A stretch of 42,555 bases of DNA from Thermoguttaceae bacterium (lineage in GTDB: Bacteria > Planctomycetota > Planctomycetia > Pirellulales > Thermoguttaceae). Position numbers and translations under genes: made by a program. The stretch is taken from assembly GCA_029975295.1 (NCBI GenBank), contig JARKPK010000031.1, forward strand, positions 1 through 42,555. Direction: 5' to 3'. Under the pieces are notes generated by a model. That model was not told where the DNA came from. It worked only from the letters and a program-made list of their open reading frames with translations, and searched no databases. Below, in pieces: positions 18,553 to 28,364 of this stretch (positions within the stretch are counted from its first letter, which is position 1; the number at the start of each line of letters is the position of its first letter).

Positions 18553-20565
18553 TTAGCGCGGCTTCAGCGGCACCGTGGCGTGCCGGGCGCCTTCGGCCGG
18601 CGGCGCGCCGCCGTCGGTCCGTCGCTGACCCTCGGCCACGCGCTCGGTCGGTTGCTTGGTGGGCGAACTGCTGGTGCCGGCCAGGTAGTTGTCGATCGTC
18701 GCCGAGTTGCGCAGATGTTCGAAGTATTCGTACATCGCCAACCGTTGTTTTTTCTCGTAAAGATCTCGATGGATGTCGGCGCGGACCTTGGCGTAATCGA
18801 CTTCGACGGGTTGCGTGTACCCTTCGCAGAAGAGGATCACCCATTTGTCGTCCACCTGGATGATTTCGGAAAGCTCGCCCGGCTTGAGGGCGAAGGCCGC
18901 TTTCTCCAGCAGAGGTTGACCGCCGTGCTTGCGGATCGGCGGCACCTCGCCGCGCAGCGCCTGGCTTCCCGGCTCGACGGAGTAGGTTTCGGCCAGCAGG
19001 CCGAAGTTCTCGGCCGTCGGCTTGCGCCGCGCTAATTCCCACACTTCCTGGGCGCGCCGCCCGTTGTTCAACACGATGGCGCGGCAGCGGACGCGCGGGC
19101 CGAAGTTCGCTTCAAACCCTTTTTGCAGGTCTTCTTCGGTCACCTTCACGGCGTCGCCGACCAGCTTCTTGAGGGCCACGGCCGGCCAGACGGCGTCTTG
19201 GCGGTAAACCTCGACGGTGGTGTGCTGCTCCTCGGTGACGGTCTTCAGCCAAGCCTCGACATCGGGCGAGCCGTCGGGCCGAGGGGGAACCATTTGCGCC
19301 GCGGTTTCGGCGATTTCTTCGTCGAGCTCGCGATCGCTGACGGCGATGTTCCGCTTCTTGCACGCCAACTCGAGCAGCCGGCGGTTGATCAATCCTTCGA
19401 GCACCTCTTCGCCGTGACGATCGAGGCATTGGTCGGCCAGTTCGCTCATCGAGATCGGTTTGCCGTTGATCGTCGCCGCCACGCCCGGCATCGCGCGCCG
19501 CTTGGCCGGATCGTTGAGGATGTTCTCGACTCGGGCCTGCTGCTGAAGCTGCTGGAAGGTTTCGGCCGCGACGGTCCGCATTTTCCGCTCGCGCACCACT
19601 TCTTCCAATTGCGGCGCAACGCGCTCGATCGCCACCTGAGAGGCGGGCAGCTTGCACTCGCGCTTGAGGATCAAATACTGATTTCCCACCTGCACGACCC
19701 GCGACACTTCTCCGTCGCGCAGCTCCTCGAAGGCCACGCGTTCGATTTCGGGAAAGCTGCCATGGCGGCGGATCGGCGGGATGACGCCTTTGACCGACGC
19801 GCTGGCGTCTTCCGAGTGTTCCTTGGCCAGGTTGCCGAACTCGTCGGGCCGGGCGGCCGCCTCGGCGCGGACCTGCTCGGCGCGCGCTTTGTCGCGCACG
19901 GCGATCAGACGGCAGCGAATCGATTCGCCGTAGTGCATTTCCCAAGCGGCGCGAATTTCGGCCTGATCGACGGTGAGCCGGTCGCCCGCCAGCCGCCGCA
20001 GGGCCAACGTAGGCCAGATGATGTCGGCCGCGTACTGCACGGCGCTGATGCCGCGCTCTTGCTTGAGCAGCTTGAGCCACTGCTCGACGGGCAGATTGAA
20101 CCGCTGCGCCATCCGCTCGATTTCGCCATCGACCTCGGCCCGAGTGATCACGATGTTCCGCCGCTTGCATTCCTCGGCAATGAGGAACTTGTTGACCATG
20201 CCTTCCAGCAGTTCTTTGCCGTGCCGGCGCAGGCATTCTTCGGCCAGTTCCTCGCGGGTGATCGCCACGCCGTTGACTTGCGCCACCACTTTGCCGGCCG
20301 TTGGCTTGGCAGCCGCGGGCTGTTCGCCCGTCGCCGCGGGGGCGCTGTTGCGCGCGGTCGGCGCGGCAATCGGCTGGGCCGGTTGAGCCCGCGCCGCCGG
20401 CCGTTGCACGTTGGGATTCTGCGGCCCTTGAGCTTCGGCCTGCTCACCCCCGCTGAACAGCCGGATCGCCACGGTCAGAGCAATAACCGAAAGGCCCACG
20501 CCGATCATTCCCCACCGCAGCGTTTTCCCGCGGATCGGGGCAGTTTGGTTGAGGTCTTGGTTCAT
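18553..20565 (-). CDS. Membrane-anchored protein with duplicated SurA/parvulin-like units
   Basis: A 670-residue predicted periplasmic foldase or chaperone. An excellent GAGGAGGG ribosome site precedes the ATG at 20565. Residues 17-37 form one membrane anchor, followed by a Pro/Ala/Gln-rich linker to about 90. Two homologous units follow. Unit 1 is about residues 92-335 (VVAQVNGVAITREELAEECL) and unit 2 about 361-620 (VAATINGKPISMSELADQCL). Each has a SurA-N-like helical part with RHG-E-LLEG-(V/I)N and (K/R)RNI and a PpiC-like part ending GVIPPIRRHG or GEVPPIRKHG then a D/GEVS or GELSE hydrophobic strand. The C-terminal 45 residues are low complexity. The parvulin active-site residues are not clearly preserved, so chaperone rather than isomerase activity is possible. 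It is monocistronic and convergent with the oxidoreductase. Confidence 0.85.
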   Translation of the reverse strand: MNQDLNQTAPIRGKTLRWGMIGVGLSVIALTVAIRLFSGGEQAEAQGPQNPNVQRPAARAQPAQPIAAPTARNSAPAATGEQPAAAKPTAGKVVAQVNGVAITREELAEECLRRHGKELLEGMVNKFLIAEECKRRNIVITRAEVDGEIERMAQRFNLPVEQWLKLLKQERGISAVQYAADIIWPTLALRRLAGDRLTVDQAEIRAAWEMHYGESIRCRLIAVRDKARAEQVRAEAAARPDEFGNLAKEHSEDASASVKGVIPPIRRHGSFPEIERVAFEELRDGEVSRVVQVGNQYLILKRECKLPASQVAIERVAPQLEEVVRERKMRTVAAETFQQLQQQARVENILNDPAKRRAMPGVAATINGKPISMSELADQCLDRHGEEVLEGLINRRLLELACKKRNIAVSDRELDEEIAETAAQMVPPRPDGSPDVEAWLKTVTEEQHTTVEVYRQDAVWPAVALKKLVGDAVKVTEEDLQKGFEANFGPRVRCRAIVLNNGRRAQEVWELARRKPTAENFGLLAETYSVEPGSQALRGEVPPIRKHGGQPLLEKAAFALKPGELSEIIQVDDKWVILFCEGYTQPVEVDYAKVRADIHRDLYEKKQRLAMYEYFEHLRNSATIDNYLAGTSSSPTKQPTERVAEGQRRTDGGAPPAEGARHATVPLKPR
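18706..20292 (-). repeat. Two tandem SurA_N-PpiC-like coding units
   Basis: Unit 1 lies at 20292-19561 and unit 2 at 19485-18706 (minus strand). Aligned positions include NGVAITREELAEECLRRHGK with NGKPISMSELADQCLDRHGE, ECKRRNIVI with ACKKRNIAV, and PPIRRHGSFPEIERVAFEEL with PPIRKHGGQPLLEKAAFAL. The duplication is old: the protein similarity is evident but the DNA has diverged. Confidence 0.8.
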
Positions 20566-21365: not shown

Positions 21366-22055
21366 ATGCTTAAGCTGCGCGAAGTGGTGAAGAACTATGT
21401 CCAGCCGGACGGCGGCGTGCTGCACGTTTTGGACATCGAGCAGTTCGATGTGGCCGAGGGCGAGCAGATTGTGATGATGGGCCGGAGCGGCTGCGGCAAA
21501 ACCACCCTTCTGCACTGCATCGCCGGCATCAGCCGACCCGATTCGGGCCGCATCTGGATCGACGGCTGGGACATCACCCTGATGAGCGAAGCAGAGCGCG
21601 ATCGATTCCGCGCCGAGAAGATCGGTTACGTCTTTCAAACGTTCAATCTGCTGCCCGGTTTCACCGCGTTGGAGAATGTTCTGCTCGCCATGCGGTTCAC
21701 TGGGCGGAAGGTGGATCGGGCCCGGGCAAGGCACCTGCTGGAGCGCGTCGGCCTTCAGCATCGCGAAGGCCATCGACCCACGCAGCTTTCCGTCGGCGAG
21801 CAGCAACGCGTGGCCATCGCTCGCGCCCTGGCCAATCGGCCCAAACTGTTGTTGGCCGACGAGCCGACGGCGAACATCGATACGGGCAACCAGGCGCAGG
21901 TGCTCGAATTGATCCGCTCGACCTGCCGCGAGGAGAACGTGTCGCTGGTGCTGGTGACGCACTCGCCCGAGGTGGCGTCGCAATTCGCCCGCGTCGAGCG
22001 GTTGGAAGAGTTCAAACGGGCAGCGCAGACGAAGCAACGGGAGAAGGTGGGATGA
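21366..22055 (+). CDS. ABC transporter ATPase, LolD/MacB type
   Basis: A 229-residue nucleotide-binding subunit. Walker A is GRSGCGKTT, the Q-loop is YVFQTFNLLPGFT, the signature is QLSVGEQQRVAIARAL (LSVGE in place of LSGGE), Walker B is LLLADEP and the switch His is in VLVTHSPE. NLLPGFTALENV places it in the MacB/LolD/FtsE class that works with FtsX-type permeases, powering mechanotransmission or extrusion rather than uptake through a channel. The ATG overlaps nothing upstream; its stop overlaps the permease start in ATGA, so the two are translationally coupled. The C-terminal tail REKVG is short. Confidence 0.93.
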   Translation: MLKLREVVKNYVQPDGGVLHVLDIEQFDVAEGEQIVMMGRSGCGKTTLLHCIAGISRPDSGRIWIDGWDITLMSEAERDRFRAEKIGYVFQTFNLLPGFTALENVLLAMRFTGRKVDRARARHLLERVGLQHREGHRPTQLSVGEQQRVAIARALANRPKLLLADEPTANIDTGNQAQVLELIRSTCREENVSLVLVTHSPEVASQFARVERLEEFKRAAQTKQREKVG

Positions 22056-23638
22056 GCCTCTGGAAGGTCGCTTGGCGGAGCATTCAGCAACGGGCGCTGG
22101 CCTCGGCGCTGACGGCGTTTTCCGTCGGGCTGGGCGTGGCGTTGGTGGTGGCCGTCTTGGTCATTCACAATGTGATCGACCGCTCCTTCCGCCGCGGGGC
22201 GCAGGGCTATGATCTGGTCGTCGGCGCCAAGGGCAGTCCGCTGCTGCTTGTCTTGGGCACGGTGTTCCATCTGAACCTGAATCGCCCGCTGGATAACATC
22301 CCGTGGTCGTACTATGAAGAATTTACGGAAGGGCGATTCGTTCATGCGGTCGAGGCGGCGGTGCCGGTTTGCACGGGGCACGATTTCAAGGGTTGTCCGG
22401 CCATTGCCACCACCCCGGCGATGTTTGATGAGTTGACCTACCAGGACGATCGCAAGTACGAATTCACCGCCGGGCGAAACTTCAAGGCGGACAAACCGTT
22501 CGAGGCAGTGATCGGCGCCACGGCCGCGCGGCTCACCGGTTTGAAGGTGGGCGAGACGTTCCGGCCGGTGGCATCGGGCCCTGGCGGCCACGAAGACGAG
22601 GTGGACTTCGAAATCGTCGGCATCCTTGCGCCCACCGGCACGCCGAACGATCGGGCGATCTTCATGAACATCGAGGGCTTCTTCCGCTGCCCGACCCATC
22701 AGCAAGGTCCCTCGGCGATGCAGCGCGTGTTGGGCGGCGGCGCGAAGGAGAAAGACGCCGCCAAGCCGTCGGACAGCGCCCCGAAGGCCGACGGGGCCGC
22801 CCAGGGCGACGCTAAAAACGAGGCGAAGTCGGAGGAACTCCCGGCAACAGAGAGAGGACTGTTCCACGAGGGCGAATTGCCCGATGATCCCGCCACAACC
22901 GAGAATCGCCCCGATTCGGGCGAAATGCGCGACGCCCCGGCGACCGGGGCTAAGCCCGATGCCGCCGCCGCAGCGGCCAAGCCCGGCGAACAGGCAACCG
23001 GGAGCAAGCCGGCGGCCGACGGCCACGACCATCAATGCGACGAGCATTGCGATCACGATCACGCCCACGATCACGAACGCAATCGGGAGCTGACGGCGAT
23101 TCTGGTGCGCACCAACAGCAAGGCCCCGCATTTTTCGATGTCTTTGCCCGATGCGATCAATCGGGAGGCGACCGCTCAAGCAGTCTATCCCTCGCGAGAA
23201 ATCTTCCAGTTTTTCGACACCGTGGTGGGCAACGTGCAGTTGATGTTGCTGATTCTGGCTGTTTTGGTGGTTGTCGTGGCCAGCATCGGCATTTTGGTGA
23301 GCATCTATAATTCCATGAGCGACCGCCGCCATGAGATCGCCATCATGCGCGCCTTGGGCGCCAGCCGGCTGATCGTCATGGGCGTGATCCTGCTCGAATC
23401 GATTCTCCTATCGCTTGGGGGCGGAGTGGTGGGGATCGTGCTGGGGCACGGGCTGATTGGCGCGATGGGCCCGATGATCACCGATCAAACCGGCGTGCAG
23501 GTGGCCATGTGGGACTTCCAACTGATCGAGCTCGTTTTGATTCCCGGTTTGATCTTCCTGGCGACGGTGGTAGGCTACCTGCCGGCGGCCGTGGCCTATC
23601 GGACCGATGTCGCCCGATCGCTGCAAGCGGGAACGTGA
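22052..23638 (+). CDS. FtsX/MacB-type ABC permease with His/Cys-rich periplasmic insert
   Basis: A 528-residue permease. One N-terminal membrane helix (about 18-40) is followed by a large periplasmic MacB-PCD-like domain starting FRRGAQGYDLVVGAKGSPL, then three C-terminal helices (about 394-419, 440-470, 490-515) with the conserved loop SMSDRRHEIAIMRALGAS of the FtsX family. Residues 227-345 form a low-complexity Ala/Lys/Asp/Pro insert that ends in a metal-binding-like run: seven His and two Cys between residues 325 and 341. VVGAKGSPL and YPSREIFQFFD are features of the permease type found beside DUF3299 genes. Together with the ATPase (4-base overlap) and the DUF3299-like gene 49 bases downstream it forms one operon. 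I infer a metal-responsive, possibly zinc-linked, system. Confidence 0.9.
   Translation: MSLWKVAWRSIQQRALASALTAFSVGLGVALVVAVLVIHNVIDRSFRRGAQGYDLVVGAKGSPLLLVLGTVFHLNLNRPLDNIPWSYYEEFTEGRFVHAVEAAVPVCTGHDFKGCPAIATTPAMFDELTYQDDRKYEFTAGRNFKADKPFEAVIGATAARLTGLKVGETFRPVASGPGGHEDEVDFEIVGILAPTGTPNDRAIFMNIEGFFRCPTHQQGPSAMQRVLGGGAKEKDAAKPSDSAPKADGAAQGDAKNEAKSEELPATERGLFHEGELPDDPATTENRPDSGEMRDAPATGAKPDAAAAAAKPGEQATGSKPAADGHDHQCDEHCDHDHAHDHERNRELTAILVRTNSKAPHFSMSLPDAINREATAQAVYPSREIFQFFDTVVGNVQLMLLILAVLVVVVASIGILVSIYNSMSDRRHEIAIMRALGASRLIVMGVILLESILLSLGGGVVGIVLGHGLIGAMGPMITDQTGVQVAMWDFQLIELVLIPGLIFLATVVGYLPAAVAYRTDVARSLQAGT
23024..23074 (+). other. Coding segment of His/Cys-rich metal-binding-like motif
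   Basis: It encodes residues 325-341 of the permease, HDHQCDEHCDHDHAHDH. His325, 327, 332, 335, 337, 339 and 341 plus Cys329 and Cys333 alternate with acidic residues, a pattern typical of Zn, Ni or Cu chaperone and transporter loops. It lies on the periplasmic side by topology prediction. Confidence 0.75.
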
Positions 23639-23687
23639 TCGCGTGTGCGCCGGCCCCTGGGCCGGGCCGCCAGCGGGAGTTGGAACC

Positions 23688-24365
23688 ATGTCGAACGTTT
23701 CTTTGATCGGCGCGCAGGCCGGAGGCGAAACCGTGGCGCCGATCCGCTATCGAGCCGTGGCCCCGGCCGCGGTGCTCAGCGTGGTTTTCGGGGCGGCGTC
23801 GATCGCAGTTTTCTTTCACTGGTTGGCTGTAGCTGTTCCGTTGTGCGGGTTGATCTTCGGTTGGCGGGCCCTCAAGCAGGTCGAGCGAAGCGTGCAGGAA
23901 ACCACCGGCGCCGGCTTGGCGATGGGCGGCATGGCGCTGAGCATGGGCATGGGGTTGCTCGGCGGGGTTCTCTATTTATGGACCGGCCGCTACGAGGTGC
24001 CCATCGGCTACAAGGTCATCACCTTCGACGACCTGTTGCCCGATGAAAAGAAGCCGCTGGAAGTCCCTCCGGCCTTGGACAAGCTCGAAGGCGAACGGGT
24101 GTTCGTCCGCGGCTTCATGTTCCCCGGAAGGCAAGTAGCCAATCTGAAAGAGTTCATCCTGGTGCCGTCGATGGGGCACTGCAATTTCTGCTCGAAGCAA
24201 CTGAAATCGACCGAGATGATTCAGGTGGTGATGGGCGGCGACTTGCGGGCCCAGTACACCACGAAGATGACGCGCGTGGGCGGACGGTTGAAGATCGATC
24301 GCGAGGCGTACAAGATCCCCTACGGCAGTCTGCCGATTAAGATCGAGTGCGACTACGTGCGATAG
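23688..24365 (+). CDS. DUF3299-like membrane protein with DUF4190-like N-terminus
   Basis: A 225-residue protein. The ATG at 23688 follows GGGAG and is preferred over an upstream frame extension that overlaps the permease. Two hydrophobic hairpin helices (about 26-58 and 74-98), with FGWRALKQVERS between them, resemble a DUF4190 membrane module. The C-terminal part (105-225) has VRGFMFPGRQVANLKEFILVP and a short conserved strand set like DUF3299. Where family members I remember have a Cys plus a proline run, this protein has GHCNFCSK, giving a CxxC pair (165 and 168) facing the periplasm. DUF3299 genes are, as I recall, neighbours of MacB-like ABC genes and zinc-linked DUF2796 proteins in gammaproteobacteria. 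The third gene of this operon; exact function unknown. Confidence 0.7.
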   Translation: MSNVSLIGAQAGGETVAPIRYRAVAPAAVLSVVFGAASIAVFFHWLAVAVPLCGLIFGWRALKQVERSVQETTGAGLAMGGMALSMGMGLLGGVLYLWTGRYEVPIGYKVITFDDLLPDEKKPLEVPPALDKLEGERVFVRGFMFPGRQVANLKEFILVPSMGHCNFCSKQLKSTEMIQVVMGGDLRAQYTTKMTRVGGRLKIDREAYKIPYGSLPIKIECDYVR

Positions 24366-24428: not shown

Positions 24429-24656
24429 TCAGCCCTTTTCGGTCGTCTCGCCGGTCGGCCGCCGCGGGGCGGGCACCAGATGCTTGGCCTGTTGATAGGC
24501 CATGACGCGCCGCAGCACCTCGTCGGGCGACTCGGACACCATCATCCGTTCACCGGTGGTGAGTGTGATGAACGTGTCGGGTTGCGCCTCAACCGTGCAG
24601 ATCAGTTCGGCATTGAGGATGAACGACGATCCGTTCAACCGCGTCAGTTTTATCAT
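24429..24656 (-). CDS. flbD: FlbD-family flagellar protein
   Basis: A 75-residue protein, MIKLTRLNGSSFILNAELI...VEAQPDTFITLTTGERMMVSES, the compact FlbD/SwrD family often found directly after flgE. In Bacillus the relative SwrD promotes swarming by raising motor power. The ATG at 24656 fits the family start; the frame stays open to 24749 without family-like sequence. The C-terminal tail (VPAPRRPTGETTEKG) is a lineage-specific extension. It is the last gene of the flagellar run, 134 bases after flgE, and faces the DUF3299 gene tail-to-tail. Confidence 0.92.
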   Translation of the reverse strand: MIKLTRLNGSSFILNAELICTVEAQPDTFITLTTGERMMVSESPDEVLRRVMAYQQAKHLVPAPRRPTGETTEKG

Positions 24657-24790
24657 CGGTGATCCCCGGGGCGCCGCGGCGGTTGCGGCGGTTGCATTCC
24701 TCGGCCCGTTGCCGGCGCGTTGCTGCGGCGCCGCGGCCTTGCCGACCAAGCGGCTTTGCCGCTGGCGCGCCGCTTCGCTGCCGCGCGCGT

Positions 24791-27649
24791 TTACCGCCGC
24801 AGGGCCAGCAGTTCATCGAACATCTGTTGGACGGTGGTGACCACTCGGGCGTTGCCGCGGTACATCGTCGAGGCGAGGATCAGGTCGATCAGGTTGCCGC
24901 CGATGTCGGTGTTCGACAGTTCTTGCGCGCCGGCGATGATCGACCCGATGCCCTGCTCGTTGGGATTTCCCTCGACCGGCAGGCCCGAGTTGACGCCGGC
25001 CGAATACATGTTTTCGCCCTTCTGCTCGAGGCCGGCCACGTTGCTGAACCGCGCCAGGCGAATCTGGCCCAAGTCGCGGGTGATGCCGTTGCTGAACACG
25101 CCGCGGATTCGGCCGTCTTCGCCGACGATGAAGCTGGTGAGCACGCCGGGGGCCGACCCGTCTTGCCGCGAAATGGCCAACGTGTTGTGATCGGTGGCCA
25201 AGCCGGAAAGCTGCGTGAAATCGAGGTTGAACTCCAGCGGCGAGCGCGACGAAACGTGCGACCGCATCACGGAAACGGTCGAATTCGTCGCGGAGATGAA
25301 GTTGCCTTCGCCGTCGAAGTAGATCAGGCCCGTCCCGCAGGAGATCGACGCCCCGGTCAGCGGGTCGTTGTCGGGCGAATCGGCGTACCAGCGATAGACC
25401 GTGTTGGTGCTGCTGCGGCTTTCCAGCACGGCCGTGATGCGAACGGCCACGGGAATGCCCAGCGAATCGTAAGCGATGAAGTCGGCCACGGCGCTGTTGC
25501 CGGCCGCGCGATGCTGCGCGGTGAAGGGGAGATTGACCGTCCTCCGCCCTTCGGTGGTGACCAATTGCAGCCCCGAAAGCCCGATGCTCACCGCGTTGTC
25601 GACGCCGTTGTTGGCCGTGAACTTGATCCGGCCGTTCTCGACGAAGCCGCCGGCGGCATGGCCGGTATTGGCGTCCAAGGGAATCGGGTGATCGGGATCC
25701 GACCCCGGCGGCTTCTGGATGCCCAGCGCCTGCTCCATGAAGTTGTACAGATCGATCACCTTCGTGGTGTCGTTGATGGTGAACGTCTTGGTGGCCAAGG
25801 TGCGGTCGCCCTTCTTGCCGGAAAACTCCAGCGTGGCGGTGGTGCCGGGGGCGAAGTTGAACACGCGGGCATAGGTCGAGCCGTCGCGGCGGATCACGTC
25901 TTTCAACAGCGTGCTTTGGCTGATCGGCGGGCCGTCGAGATTGAGCGTCCAATGCAGCTTGGCGCCGCCCGGCCCAACGGCATTCAGGTCGGAGATGACG
26001 GAGTCGGGGACCATGTCGGTGTAGCTGAAGTTGCCGTCGACGCGATTGACCGACGTGACATAGTAGAACGTGTTGGCGTCGGTCGAGAGGTTGCGATAGA
26101 TGCGCGTTTCGCAATCATTCGGCGGCCATTGCAGCGTGTCGGTCGTGCCCGGGAAGTTGTAGAGATGCACGCGGCCCGGTTCGACGGTGATGCCCTGCGC
26201 GGTCAGCGGATTGGGCCGGCTTTCCACGCCGGTGGCGCGGTTGTAGTAGGTGACGTAATAGCTGTAGTTGCCCGAGATCGACGGATAGGTGTCGAGCAGA
26301 TGCCGCGTGGACGGGTCGGTGGCCGTGGCGTTGGTCGTGGTGTCGGTGAAGGAGAGCTTGTGAGAGACGGCGGGGCCCAGCCCGGCGTCGTCGGTGATGT
26401 CGGTGAAGGTGGTCGTTCCGGCGGCGATCGATCCCAAGTAGTAATACGTGTCTTGATTCGAGCCGGGGTTCTTCGTGGTGCGGTAGATGCGGGCGAAGGC
26501 GTAGCCGCCGGTGGAAAGCCCGGTCAACTCCACGGCGTTTTGCCCGCTGGCCACGGTGGCTTGCAGGGCGTCGTAGGTTTTCGAGAGCGGACCGTCGGCG
26601 CTGCCCGGCCAAGCGACGTTGGAGTACTCGATGCGGTAGTAGTAGTTGCCCACGTCAACGTCGCCGCCCACGGCATTGATGCCCGTGGCCGACGCGCCGC
26701 TCCAATTGCAGTAGTTCGTGGCGACTTCGCCGACGAAATAGTACTTCGGGTCGTCGGCCGGATGGTTGGTTTCGGTTCGATAGACGCGGACGTAGGAGTA
26801 TTTGTCGTCGGCCGGCAGTCCGTCGATTTGCACCGTTCCGCCGCCGGCCGGCACGGTGACCTGCGTGGAATTGGCCGAGGCGATGCCTTCGGTTCCGCCG
26901 TTGGCCATCGTGTCGTCGGCATAGACGAAGCGGTAGTAGTAGTTGCCCGGTTCGATCGGGCCCGGCGTCGTGGTGCTGTCGTAGGTTACGCCGGAAAGCA
27001 TCATCGGCGTGGCGGCCACCGTGCTGACGGCCGTTTGCGGATAGGTGATGGCCCCGTTGCTGAGCACCCCGGTTTGAATGGTTTCCGCTCGATCGCCGAT
27101 ATCCCCGGTGGGCGAAAGCGTGCCTTCGAGAAACGCCGTGGAGGTGGGCCGAGCCACGGCGGCGGCGCCCAGGGGAATGGTCAACGGGACGAGGTGGGTT
27201 TGCTGGATCTGGTACTGGTCGTTGACGCCGAACCCGAGCACGCGATTGCCGGTGATCGTGACAATCTGGTTTTCCGAGTTCAGCTTGAAAATGCCGTTGC
27301 GGGTGTACAATCGTTCGCCGCTGGTGCCTTGCACGATGAAGAAACCGTCGCCCTGAATCGCCATATCGGTCGGATTCGAGCTGATTTGGATCGTGCCCTG
27401 CGAGAAGTTCGGGGTGATGTCGGCCACCATCGTGCCCAAGCCGACTTGGCGCGGGTTGGTGCCGCCGCTGTTGTTCGTCGGCGCCGACCCGAGGCTCTTG
27501 GTTTGCAAGAACTGGGTGGCGAACGAAGCCGTCGACGCTTTGAAACCCACCGTGTTGGAGTTGGCCAAGTTGTTGCCCACCACGTCGATCGTGGTTTCGG
27601 CCGCGGTCAAGCCGGTCAGGGCTGTGCTTAGTGCAGATGCCAAACCCAT
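24791..27649 (-). CDS. flgE: Flagellar hook protein FlgE, very long
   Basis: A 952-residue hook protein; the family is usually 400-550. The ATG at 27649 has an AGGAGAG ribosome site. The N-terminal rod-like helix LTGLTAAETTIDVVGNNLAN and NTVGFKAS are canonical, followed by FlgE D0/D1 strands (MAIQGDGFFIVQG, YTRNGIFKLN). The C-terminus has EGNPNEQGIGSIIAGAQEL, SNTDIGGNLIDLILAS and YRGNARVVTTVQQMFDELLAL, all standard. The extra length is a surface insert at about 225-550 containing three tandem repeats. A segment at about 625-680 (FNFAPGTTATLEFSGKKG) belongs to the hook D2-like region. The upstream gene flgD is the hook cap, and fliK lies before it, so the hook assembly module is complete. Confidence 0.96.
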   Translation of the reverse strand: MGLASALSTALTGLTAAETTIDVVGNNLANSNTVGFKASTASFATQFLQTKSLGSAPTNNSGGTNPRQVGLGTMVADITPNFSQGTIQISSNPTDMAIQGDGFFIVQGTSGERLYTRNGIFKLNSENQIVTITGNRVLGFGVNDQYQIQQTHLVPLTIPLGAAAVARPTSTAFLEGTLSPTGDIGDRAETIQTGVLSNGAITYPQTAVSTVAATPMMLSGVTYDSTTTPGPIEPGNYYYRFVYADDTMANGGTEGIASANSTQVTVPAGGGTVQIDGLPADDKYSYVRVYRTETNHPADDPKYYFVGEVATNYCNWSGASATGINAVGGDVDVGNYYYRIEYSNVAWPGSADGPLSKTYDALQATVASGQNAVELTGLSTGGYAFARIYRTTKNPGSNQDTYYYLGSIAAGTTTFTDITDDAGLGPAVSHKLSFTDTTTNATATDPSTRHLLDTYPSISGNYSYYVTYYNRATGVESRPNPLTAQGITVEPGRVHLYNFPGTTDTLQWPPNDCETRIYRNLSTDANTFYYVTSVNRVDGNFSYTDMVPDSVISDLNAVGPGGAKLHWTLNLDGPPISQSTLLKDVIRRDGSTYARVFNFAPGTTATLEFSGKKGDRTLATKTFTINDTTKVIDLYNFMEQALGIQKPPGSDPDHPIPLDANTGHAAGGFVENGRIKFTANNGVDNAVSIGLSGLQLVTTEGRRTVNLPFTAQHRAAGNSAVADFIAYDSLGIPVAVRITAVLESRSSTNTVYRWYADSPDNDPLTGASISCGTGLIYFDGEGNFISATNSTVSVMRSHVSSRSPLEFNLDFTQLSGLATDHNTLAISRQDGSAPGVLTSFIVGEDGRIRGVFSNGITRDLGQIRLARFSNVAGLEQKGENMYSAGVNSGLPVEGNPNEQGIGSIIAGAQELSNTDIGGNLIDLILASTMYRGNARVVTTVQQMFDELLALRR
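26003..26953 (-). repeat. Three tandem Fn3-like repeats within FlgE
   Basis: Residues 233-313, 333-422 and 458-549 of FlgE each start with a GNYYYR(F/I) or GNYSYY strand followed by a Tyr (VY, EY, TY), continue to a strand with (V/A/T)R(V/I)YR(T/N), and end with a YYF, YYYLGS or FYYVTS strand. Spacing between the blocks is about 52-55 and 16-20 residues. The aromatic strands and the length suggest a fibronectin III-like beta-sandwich. These units probably decorate the outside of the hook. Confidence 0.75.
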
Positions 27650-27811
27650 GTCTTGCTCTCCTGTCGATTGTCGCCGTTCGGCGGCCGGGCGGCTCCGCGC
27701 CGTTGGGCGTTGGGCCGGGTCGCCGGTTGCTGTCTTGTCATCAAACCTGTGTCAACGATTGCAACGATTCATCACCCCAAAGGGCGGCTTGCCTTGCTTG
27801 TTTCAACGACG

Positions 27812-28303
27812 CTATTCGCCCTGCCCTGCTGGGTTCTCTTGGGCGGTGGACGCTTCTGTGTCGGCTTGGGCGGTTGACCCTTCCGAAGGCTGATCGGGAA
27901 GAATCTTCTGGACGTTCGACAGACTTACCACCTGATCGCCGACATGCAGCTTGGCGGCTCCGTTCTGAAACACCACGCCCGTCACCTTGCCTTGAACCTC
28001 TTTGCCCGAATCGTCCAATCCGGAGATTTTTCGACCGAGCATCGCGGCGGCCGTGTTGAGGTTCTGTCCGAGCATCACGCCGGTCAATGTTGTTGTCAGG
28101 TATTGGTTGGCCTGAATGGCGCGAATCTGGCCGATCTGTTCGACTAGGTCCTTGTTTTTCACCGGATCAAGGGGGTCCTGATTCTGCAATTCGGAAATCA
28201 GCAGTTTCATGAAATCGTCGATGTTCAAATTGGCATAGGCGTCGCTGGTGGTGCTTTGCGCGCCGACCGATCCTTGAATCCCGCCAACGGCCGAGTTCGC
28301 CAT
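27812..28303 (-). CDS. flgD: Flagellar hook cap (hook assembly) protein FlgD
   Basis: A 163-residue FlgD, the scaffold that caps the growing hook. The ATG at 28303 follows AGGAGCG; the frame is open to 28360 without family sequence. The diagnostic N-terminal block FMKLLISELQNQDPLDP is at residues 31-47, followed by LVEQIGQIRAIQANQYL. A small Tudor-like part (LGRKISGLDDSGKEV...VSLSNVQKIL) follows. The protein is shorter than the usual 220 residues because the FlgD-type Fn3 domain between the Tudor halves is absent. The acidic Ser/Thr/Gln tail is disordered. A 162-base gap separates it from flgE. Confidence 0.93.
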   Translation of the reverse strand: MANSAVGGIQGSVGAQSTTSDAYANLNIDDFMKLLISELQNQDPLDPVKNKDLVEQIGQIRAIQANQYLTTTLTGVMLGQNLNTAAAMLGRKISGLDDSGKEVQGKVTGVVFQNGAAKLHVGDQVVSLSNVQKILPDQPSEGSTAQADTEASTAQENPAGQGE

Positions 28304-28364
28304 GATTTCGCTCCTGTTTGCTCCTCGCCTGCGCGCCGCGGGGCTTTGCGCGGGCAACATTCGT

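Follow-up and report, generated by a model that had tools for sequence, protein, structure and literature searches.

A Zrg-related ABC locus without ZrgA and with a histidine-rich permease loop in a Thermoguttaceae bacterium

What does a permease of the MacB/LolCE type do with seven histidines (His) and two cysteines (Cys) within 17 residues of its presumed periplasmic part? The question is raised by three adjoining genes of a Thermoguttaceae bacterium (Planctomycetota), found in a stretch of 42,555 nucleotides of assembly GCA_029975295.1 (contig JARKPK010000031.1, positions 1 to 42,555, forward strand), referred to here as the window. The genes encode an ATP-binding cassette (ABC) ATPase, the permease and a DUF3299-like protein. 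An earlier note, made from the sequence without database searches, had pointed to the His/Cys cluster and had named a resemblance to the Zrg loci of other bacteria. Comparison shows the permease and the partner protein to be distantly related to components of the Zrg system (ZrgB and PA4066, respectively), and the locus is a variant of the Zrg-like MacB-type machines, not a new class. It is probably an ABC system that handles zinc or a similar metal, with the metal-binding part built into the permease in a Zrg-related setting that lacks ZrgA. The features on which the argument rests are the following.

21366..22055, + strand: ABC ATPase subunit, 229 residues, LolD/MacB/FtsE type (Pfam ABC_tran, 129 bits)
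22052..23638, + strand: MacB/LolCE-type permease, 528 residues (MacB_PCD 50.3 and FtsX 56.6 bits, both above cut-off)
22094..22198, + strand: region of the first transmembrane helix, permease residues 15-49 (helix in the model; membrane placement predicted from the MacB/LolCE fold)
22682..23089, + strand: disordered, variable loop of the periplasmic domain, permease residues 211-346, an insert relative to ZrgB-type permeases (MAFFT and AlphaFold2)
23024..23074, + strand: His/Cys cluster, permease residues 325-341, candidate metal-binding stretch (read from the sequence)
23189..23629, + strand: C-terminal FtsX domain (residues 401-515) and three further predicted transmembrane helices, permease residues 380-526
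23688..24365, + strand: DUF3299-like protein, 225 residues, predicted to be membrane-anchored, remote relative of ZrgE/PA4066 (PF11736, 20.0 bits, cut-off 22)
23763..23990, + strand: DUF4190-like anchor, formed by hydrophobic helices near the N-terminus of the DUF3299-like protein, residues 26-101
24180..24191, + strand: CNFC motif of the DUF3299-like protein, residues 165-168, with Cys165 and Cys168

The permease and its histidine-rich loop

The cluster of seven His and two Cys is present in the permease at residues 325-341. It lies in an insert at the place given by the earlier note, which had put the insert at 119 residues. A MAFFT alignment of 146 permeases gives the window protein a loop of 136 residues, and the insert therefore comes to about 100, given that permeases adjoining ZrgA have mostly 29-34 residues at this place (extremes 21 and 65), with one to three His. 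Within the loop of the window permease there are up to seven His in 20 residues; outside it the maximum is two.

A His-rich insert is shared by many close relatives; its absence from all of them was one of the findings that the earlier note would have counted against its reading. When a loop with at least five His in 20 residues is taken as His-rich, 32 of the 58 permeases aligned from the order qualify at this place, comprising 22/33 in the family of the window and 10/25 in the other families. Across these 58 proteins, from 55 genomes, His makes up 13.7% of the loop (550/4014 residues) and 1.95% of the remainder (454/23313), a sevenfold difference in a sequence that is otherwise unconserved. 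Permeases from outside the order have a His-rich loop in 34 of 177 cases. A chance low-complexity insertion in one genome, which the unconserved, low-complexity letters might suggest, is refuted by these relatives and is very improbable. The remaining FtsX matches of the window genome (14 in 11 frames, some of them partly read) have at most two His in 20 residues on the coding strand, and of the 337 remaining long called frames in the loci, 13 reach the His threshold, several of which look spurious. The His-rich loop is thus confirmed as real, recurrent and located at a conserved place. In one relative (L093) a His-rich stretch stands elsewhere in the permease.

An AlphaFold2 model built from the 58 aligned sequences has a mean predicted local distance difference test score (pLDDT) of 81 and shows a confident MacB-like fold except for residues 241-334, which are disordered and mostly below 50. 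The best Foldseek match of the model is MacB (5gko), followed by LolCDE, and a PDB search with the family profile gives MacB, LolF and LolE. A profile built from 11 diverse permeases offered no stretch with conservation high enough to scan the genome collection with it. The C-terminal helices of the model (380-420, 439-471 and 491-526) are assigned to the membrane by analogy with this fold. Since one transmembrane helix would precede the large periplasmic domain and three would follow it, with the placement taken from MacB, the loop should be periplasmic. We take the loop to be, probably, a metal-binding element that works in cis.

The permease is coupled to its ATPase as the earlier note had read it, the permease ATG overlapping the ATPase stop by four bases (ATGA). 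With MacB_PCD and FtsX domains, four long predicted membrane-type helices and a LolD-like ATPase, the system belongs to the MacB/LolCE (type VII) superfamily. It differs from MacB and LolCDE in its His-rich loop and its DUF3299-like partner, and no MacA-type adaptor was found in the three operon genes and two neighbours scanned, the remaining genome not having been searched. Equivalence to LolCDE is not reached in NCBIfam: the best model for the ATPase is LolD at 201.1 bits (cut-off 307.75), and lolCE gives 37.7 bits (cut-off 362.45).

Kinship with Zrg and the absence of ZrgA

The resemblance to Zrg, which the earlier note had pointed out, is real. A tblastn search with the window permease leads to plasmid-borne operons of Phaeobacter and Pseudomonas in which the genes are arranged as ZrgA-ATPase-permease-DUF3299, and the permease profile aligns with a Zrg-type profile over 412 columns (hhalign, E 3e-64). 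The ZrgABCDE genes of Vibrio and PA4063-PA4066 of Pseudomonas aeruginosa resemble the window locus in that a split MacB-type ATPase and permease are accompanied by a DUF3299 protein, the gene order often being identical. They differ from it in possessing ZrgA and in the short permease loop described above. Moreover, the window partner is predicted to be membrane-anchored and has CNFC, whereas the ZrgE-type protein reads CIHxPPPPxNQ, and no known Zur box was found at the window copy.

ZrgA, as Pfam currently names PF10986, was found in none of 60 genomes (the window genome and 59 relatives) and in no frame of the window and 60 loci. The same search found it in 3/3 records known to have ZrgA and in 0/2 of those known to lack it. 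All 60 genomes gave some permease match; 55 of them yielded the 58 aligned permeases and the remaining five had weak FtsX-type matches only. When 294 genomes drawn from the phylum were searched, the strong full-length hits among the matches listed belong to the order and to a single large family of the class. Several other families give full-length matches of lower score, and two further families of the class have weak matches only.

Is the loop found where ZrgA is missing? Two samples from outside the order were read. The first consisted of the best 80 of 563 genome-scan matches to three permease queries, plus eight plasmid loci, and is biased towards the query; ZrgA stood with a His-rich loop in none, ZrgA without the loop in 63, the loop without ZrgA in 12 and neither in nine, while four loci, all with the loop, were unreadable. 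For the second, 398 genomes were drawn evenly from the phylum to which the Pseudoalteromonas locus L135 belongs, and 89 of them matched at E <=1e-40. In 89 loci from 88 of these genomes the corresponding counts were 0, 59, 18 and 12. In both samples together, leaving out five loci of unreadable state, 172 loci show a His-rich loop in 0/122 cases with ZrgA and in 30/50 without it (Fisher p 1.6e-20). A His-rich part within the permease that replaces the separate protein would fit this exclusion. The earlier note had proposed that the His-rich part moved into the permease; the exclusion agrees with that idea, and the direction implied by 'moved' is not given by the unrooted tree.

This permease tree, computed without the loop columns, comes from a quick search under a simple model and has several long branches. 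A supported branch separates the window permease from the Zrg-type permeases. The 78 rows on the side of the window, where no ZrgA was seen, comprise 58 from the order, eight beside a PhoA-type alkaline phosphatase and a group of 12 from Pseudomonadota that includes an unreadable one (L307). The other side, of 157 rows, holds the ZrgA loci and includes several ZrgA-less lineages with a His-rich loop.

ZnuABC has a different binding protein and a different permease; two genes of the ZnuA family stand at other places in the window genome. ZnuABC is alike in that, according to the literature, it takes up metal with the help of a His-rich loop, located there in the binding protein. A word search of open-access papers found no account of a permease loop of this kind or of its exclusion with ZrgA, which is weak evidence of absence. 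ZepA (PMC10957091) was set aside as a different zinc system; neither "permease" nor "MacB" appears in the text of that paper.

Partner gene, neighbours and upstream motifs

The longest frame of the third gene begins at 23607, within the permease gene; a start at 23688 is more likely, as it lies past the permease stop and has GGAG ahead of it. The earlier note had called the product a CxxC-bearing, DUF3299-like protein. The motif is there, as CNFC, and the family assignment stays just below the Pfam threshold at the score listed above, so that a DUF3299 search of the window genome gives no match, the window gene scoring below the cut-off. DUF4190 is likewise below its own (27.6 bits, cut-off 35). 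Kinship is visible in structure: the model of the protein (pLDDT 90), with helices at 26-42, 45-67 and 75-101, has PA4066 (4hsp) as its top Foldseek match (E 4.5e-6; TM-score 0.52 by target length and 0.36 by query length), and 4hsp is also the sole significant PDB sequence found with the family profile (E 1.3e-5). The solved DUF3299 structure is described as offering no hint of its role (PMC8561739).

Cys165 is invariant in 35 aligned partners. Cys168 is kept in 21/21 proteins of the window's family, and partners from other families read CCFG, with Gly at the second Cys place, in 14/14; only the first Cys of the CxxC is therefore invariant. Within the clade, the partners encoded at four Pseudomonadota loci score above the DUF3299 cut-off (26.9-32.7 bits) and a fifth (L303) has no match. 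A DUF3299-like gene was found in the fetched stretch of 42/58 loci, some contigs ending early.

In several other families of the order (L065, L060, L091, L095 and others) a tandem pair of DUF3299-like genes stands behind the permease. The families of the order other than the window's also carry a gene for a secreted-looking protein with an N-terminal ACPFC, which resembles the start of NTR/TIMP domains with weak Pfam support, and with HEAT-like repeats (e.g. L076:5292-6509 and L093:5346-6638). It is present in 23/23 sampled genomes of these families and in 0/37 of the window's own, and it often sits between the permease and the DUF3299-like gene.

The best evidence for zinc within the clade comes from neighbouring genes. 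Among its 12 phosphatase-less loci from Pseudomonadota, seven have a His-rich loop, five have a Fur-family gene and three a COG0523 gene within about 4 kb. One or the other is found at six of the 12, of which four have the loop, as compared with 7/59 ZrgA loci and 2/14 ZrgA-less loci from the other side of the tree. The COG0523 neighbours score 583-633 bits against the model of ZigA, a zinc metallochaperone GTPase (cut-off 600, one above it), and the Fur protein adjoining L294 is nearest to Zur at 51.9 bits (cut-off 167). Within the order, one genome (G045) has, besides its usual copy (L082), a second copy of the operon (L077:1989-12566) in the order ZigA-like, ATPase, permease, DUF3299-like, Fur. 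In a Halochromatium locus (L175), genes for a ZnuA-like protein, an ATPase, a probable permease and Fur are followed by ATPase, permease and DUF3299 genes without ZrgA; the names ZnuA and permease of the first set were given by eye.

A further group of loci, from Deinococcota and some Pseudomonadota (L115, L118, L117, L100 and L303-L306), has the order PhoA-type phosphatase, CPFC protein, ATPase, permease, and is annotated as hypothetical in Deinococcus. These loci share the window's side of the tree, the lack of any ZrgA seen and, in 5/8 cases, the His-rich loop; they differ in the phosphatase, in the position of the partner gene ahead of the ATPase and in that Pfam does not assign the partner to DUF3299. 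The tie between the CPFC proteins and the window partner rests for this reason on our own profile, which finds the window partner at 32.5 bits. PhoA-type alkaline phosphatase needs zinc. The phosphatase-linked member of Deinococcus radiodurans R1 is loop-poor.

Upstream sequences were searched in 50 operons. A Mur-type consensus is matched at 11 or more of 14 positions in 5/50, compared with 2/250 shuffled sequences, and the derived pattern TGCAAnTnnnTTGCA, with at most one mismatch, occurs in 5/50 operon upstreams and in 8/1378 equally long tiles taken from these loci, with the sites left in. The underlying TGCAA-N5-TTGCA box, which we take to resemble a Fur-family (Mur-type) box, precedes the ATPase gene in L093, L060, L083, L075 and L095, all from other families of the order; the best site in the window has four mismatches. 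As the pattern was read off the same sites, it is a lead and not a test. De novo motifs were dominated by what appears to be the beginning of the ATPase gene, which is conserved. A palindrome, atTTTTggaTnAtccAAAAat, was found upstream of a set of 20 znuA-like genes of the order (L308-L327) with a log-likelihood of 121, against 31.5-38.8 in shuffles; 13 of the 20 have a site of at least 17.9 bits, and the two znuA upstreams of the window genome lack it.

Around the operon, the opposite strand encodes, upstream, a 670-residue protein that contains two PpiC-type rotamase stretches (18553-20565, -) and, downstream, FlbD (24429-24662, -), followed by what are presumably flagellar hook-type genes (24791-28360, -).

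Metal handling, its direction and the alternatives

If the locus handles zinc or a similar metal, the three gene products would form a MacB/LolCE-type ABC complex of Zrg kinship that operates without ZrgA. The flexible periplasmic His/Cys loop of a permease dimer may capture Zn2+, or a divalent metal like it, from the periplasm, and so play in cis the part that the separate His-rich protein ZrgA would play in trans. ATP hydrolysis by the LolD-like subunit would move the periplasmic domains and thereby hand the metal off, and the membrane-anchored, OB-like DUF3299 protein, with its invariant Cys, may be the partner in this hand-off. The clearest published parallel to such a cis receptor is UreG: where UreE is missing from a genome, UreG has a His stretch, with two genomes as exceptions (PMC2770081).

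Several observations weigh against zinc handling through the loop. The loop is below the His threshold in 26/58 permeases of the order and in 20/50 of the outside loci without ZrgA. Because the loci are related, a fair test of the exclusion uses independent pairs on the tree: nine such pairs on well supported branches include two to four that differ in the loop, all in the expected way, which is too small a number for significance (p 0.125-0.5). The exclusion pattern is thus consistent and not proven independent of descent. In 57 of the 58 loci of the order, that of the window included, no Fur or COG0523 gene was found in the stretch read. The second operon copy in L077 has a His-poor loop and a Fur that is not nearest to Zur, and the Fur of L297 was found with our own profile and the NCBIfam Zur model (19 bits), not with Pfam. 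The known Fur/Zur consensus does not exceed shuffled sequence upstream of the 50 operons, and this consensus may not be that of the host group. Likewise, the znuA palindrome reaches the 95% tile score upstream of 3/50 operons, where 2.5 are expected, with one strong site (L086). To our knowledge, those MacB/Lol-type machines that have been studied well act as exporters or as mechanotransmitters and not as importers. Two experimental reports add to these points: the His-rich region of V. cholerae ZrgA is not essential (PMC9820375), and deletion of the PA4065 permease in P. aeruginosa did not lower zinc content, while cobalt accumulated in the mutants (PMC11481552).

Among uptake, efflux and periplasmic transfer we lean towards zinc acquisition or periplasmic zinc supply. 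A firm direction is not given, because the literature on Zrg disagrees. Zrg is read as a zinc uptake system in Vibrio (PMC9820375, PMC9817125), and zrgABC knockouts of V. cholerae were tested and taken to support zinc import (PMC9820375). PA4063 has been read as a chaperone or sensor (PMC8561739), Zur control and a zinc response have been reported (PMC4542158, PMC11761036), and PA4063-PA4066 have been proposed to export a pyochelin-cobalt complex (PMC11481552).

That proposal, with its cobalt and zinc results, supports an alternative that we consider unlikely, namely that the locus is a metal or metallophore exporter, in which a MacB-type pump would rid the cell of surplus metal or of a metal-chelator complex, with the loop as its sensor or scavenger. 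Such a role would also suit MacB as the closest solved fold, the HlyD-type adaptor beside the Ruegeria members, and the ZrgA-less locus L284, with a loop just under the threshold, which adjoins a His-rich protein resembling, by eye, a cation diffusion facilitator. However, an adaptor is missing from the operon genes and two neighbours scanned, ZigA/Zur-type neighbours indicate zinc shortage and not excess, and the V. cholerae knockouts were used in support of import.

A more specific possibility, rather unlikely in our judgement, is that this widespread, loop-bearing clade of MacB-type ABC systems works as an energised metal-insertion machine, in which an ATP-driven periplasmic domain would pass zinc to periplasmic clients instead of across the membrane. 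The clients would be the DUF3299-like protein and, in some bacteria, the PhoA-type phosphatase, and ZrgA and the loop would be interchangeable receptors.

It is also improbable that the genes encode a MacB/Lol-like machine with a housekeeping role in the handling of envelope proteins or lipids, with the loop as a charged low-complexity linker whose His are incidental or do no more than buffer metal. The wide presence of the system (55/60 genomes of the family and order), the absence of any metal-type regulation for the window's family in the upstream motif searches, the 26 permeases without a His-rich loop and the secreted NTR/HEAT-like gene of the other families, often within the operon, would all suit such a role. 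Nevertheless, an incidental origin is at odds with the sevenfold enrichment of His in an otherwise unconserved loop, with the mutual exclusion of loop and ZrgA in the loci read, and with the low His content of the remaining FtsX matches in the genome.

What ZrgA does and in which direction Zrg transports are matters of dispute, between zinc uptake in Vibrio and cobalt-pyochelin export in Pseudomonas. Relatives that lack ZrgA and carry the loop in the permease make the question testable, since deleting or grafting the loop would separate metal capture from transport. Our analysis also provides a functional lead for DUF3299 and for an ABC system that 55 of the 60 genomes sampled from this family and order possess.

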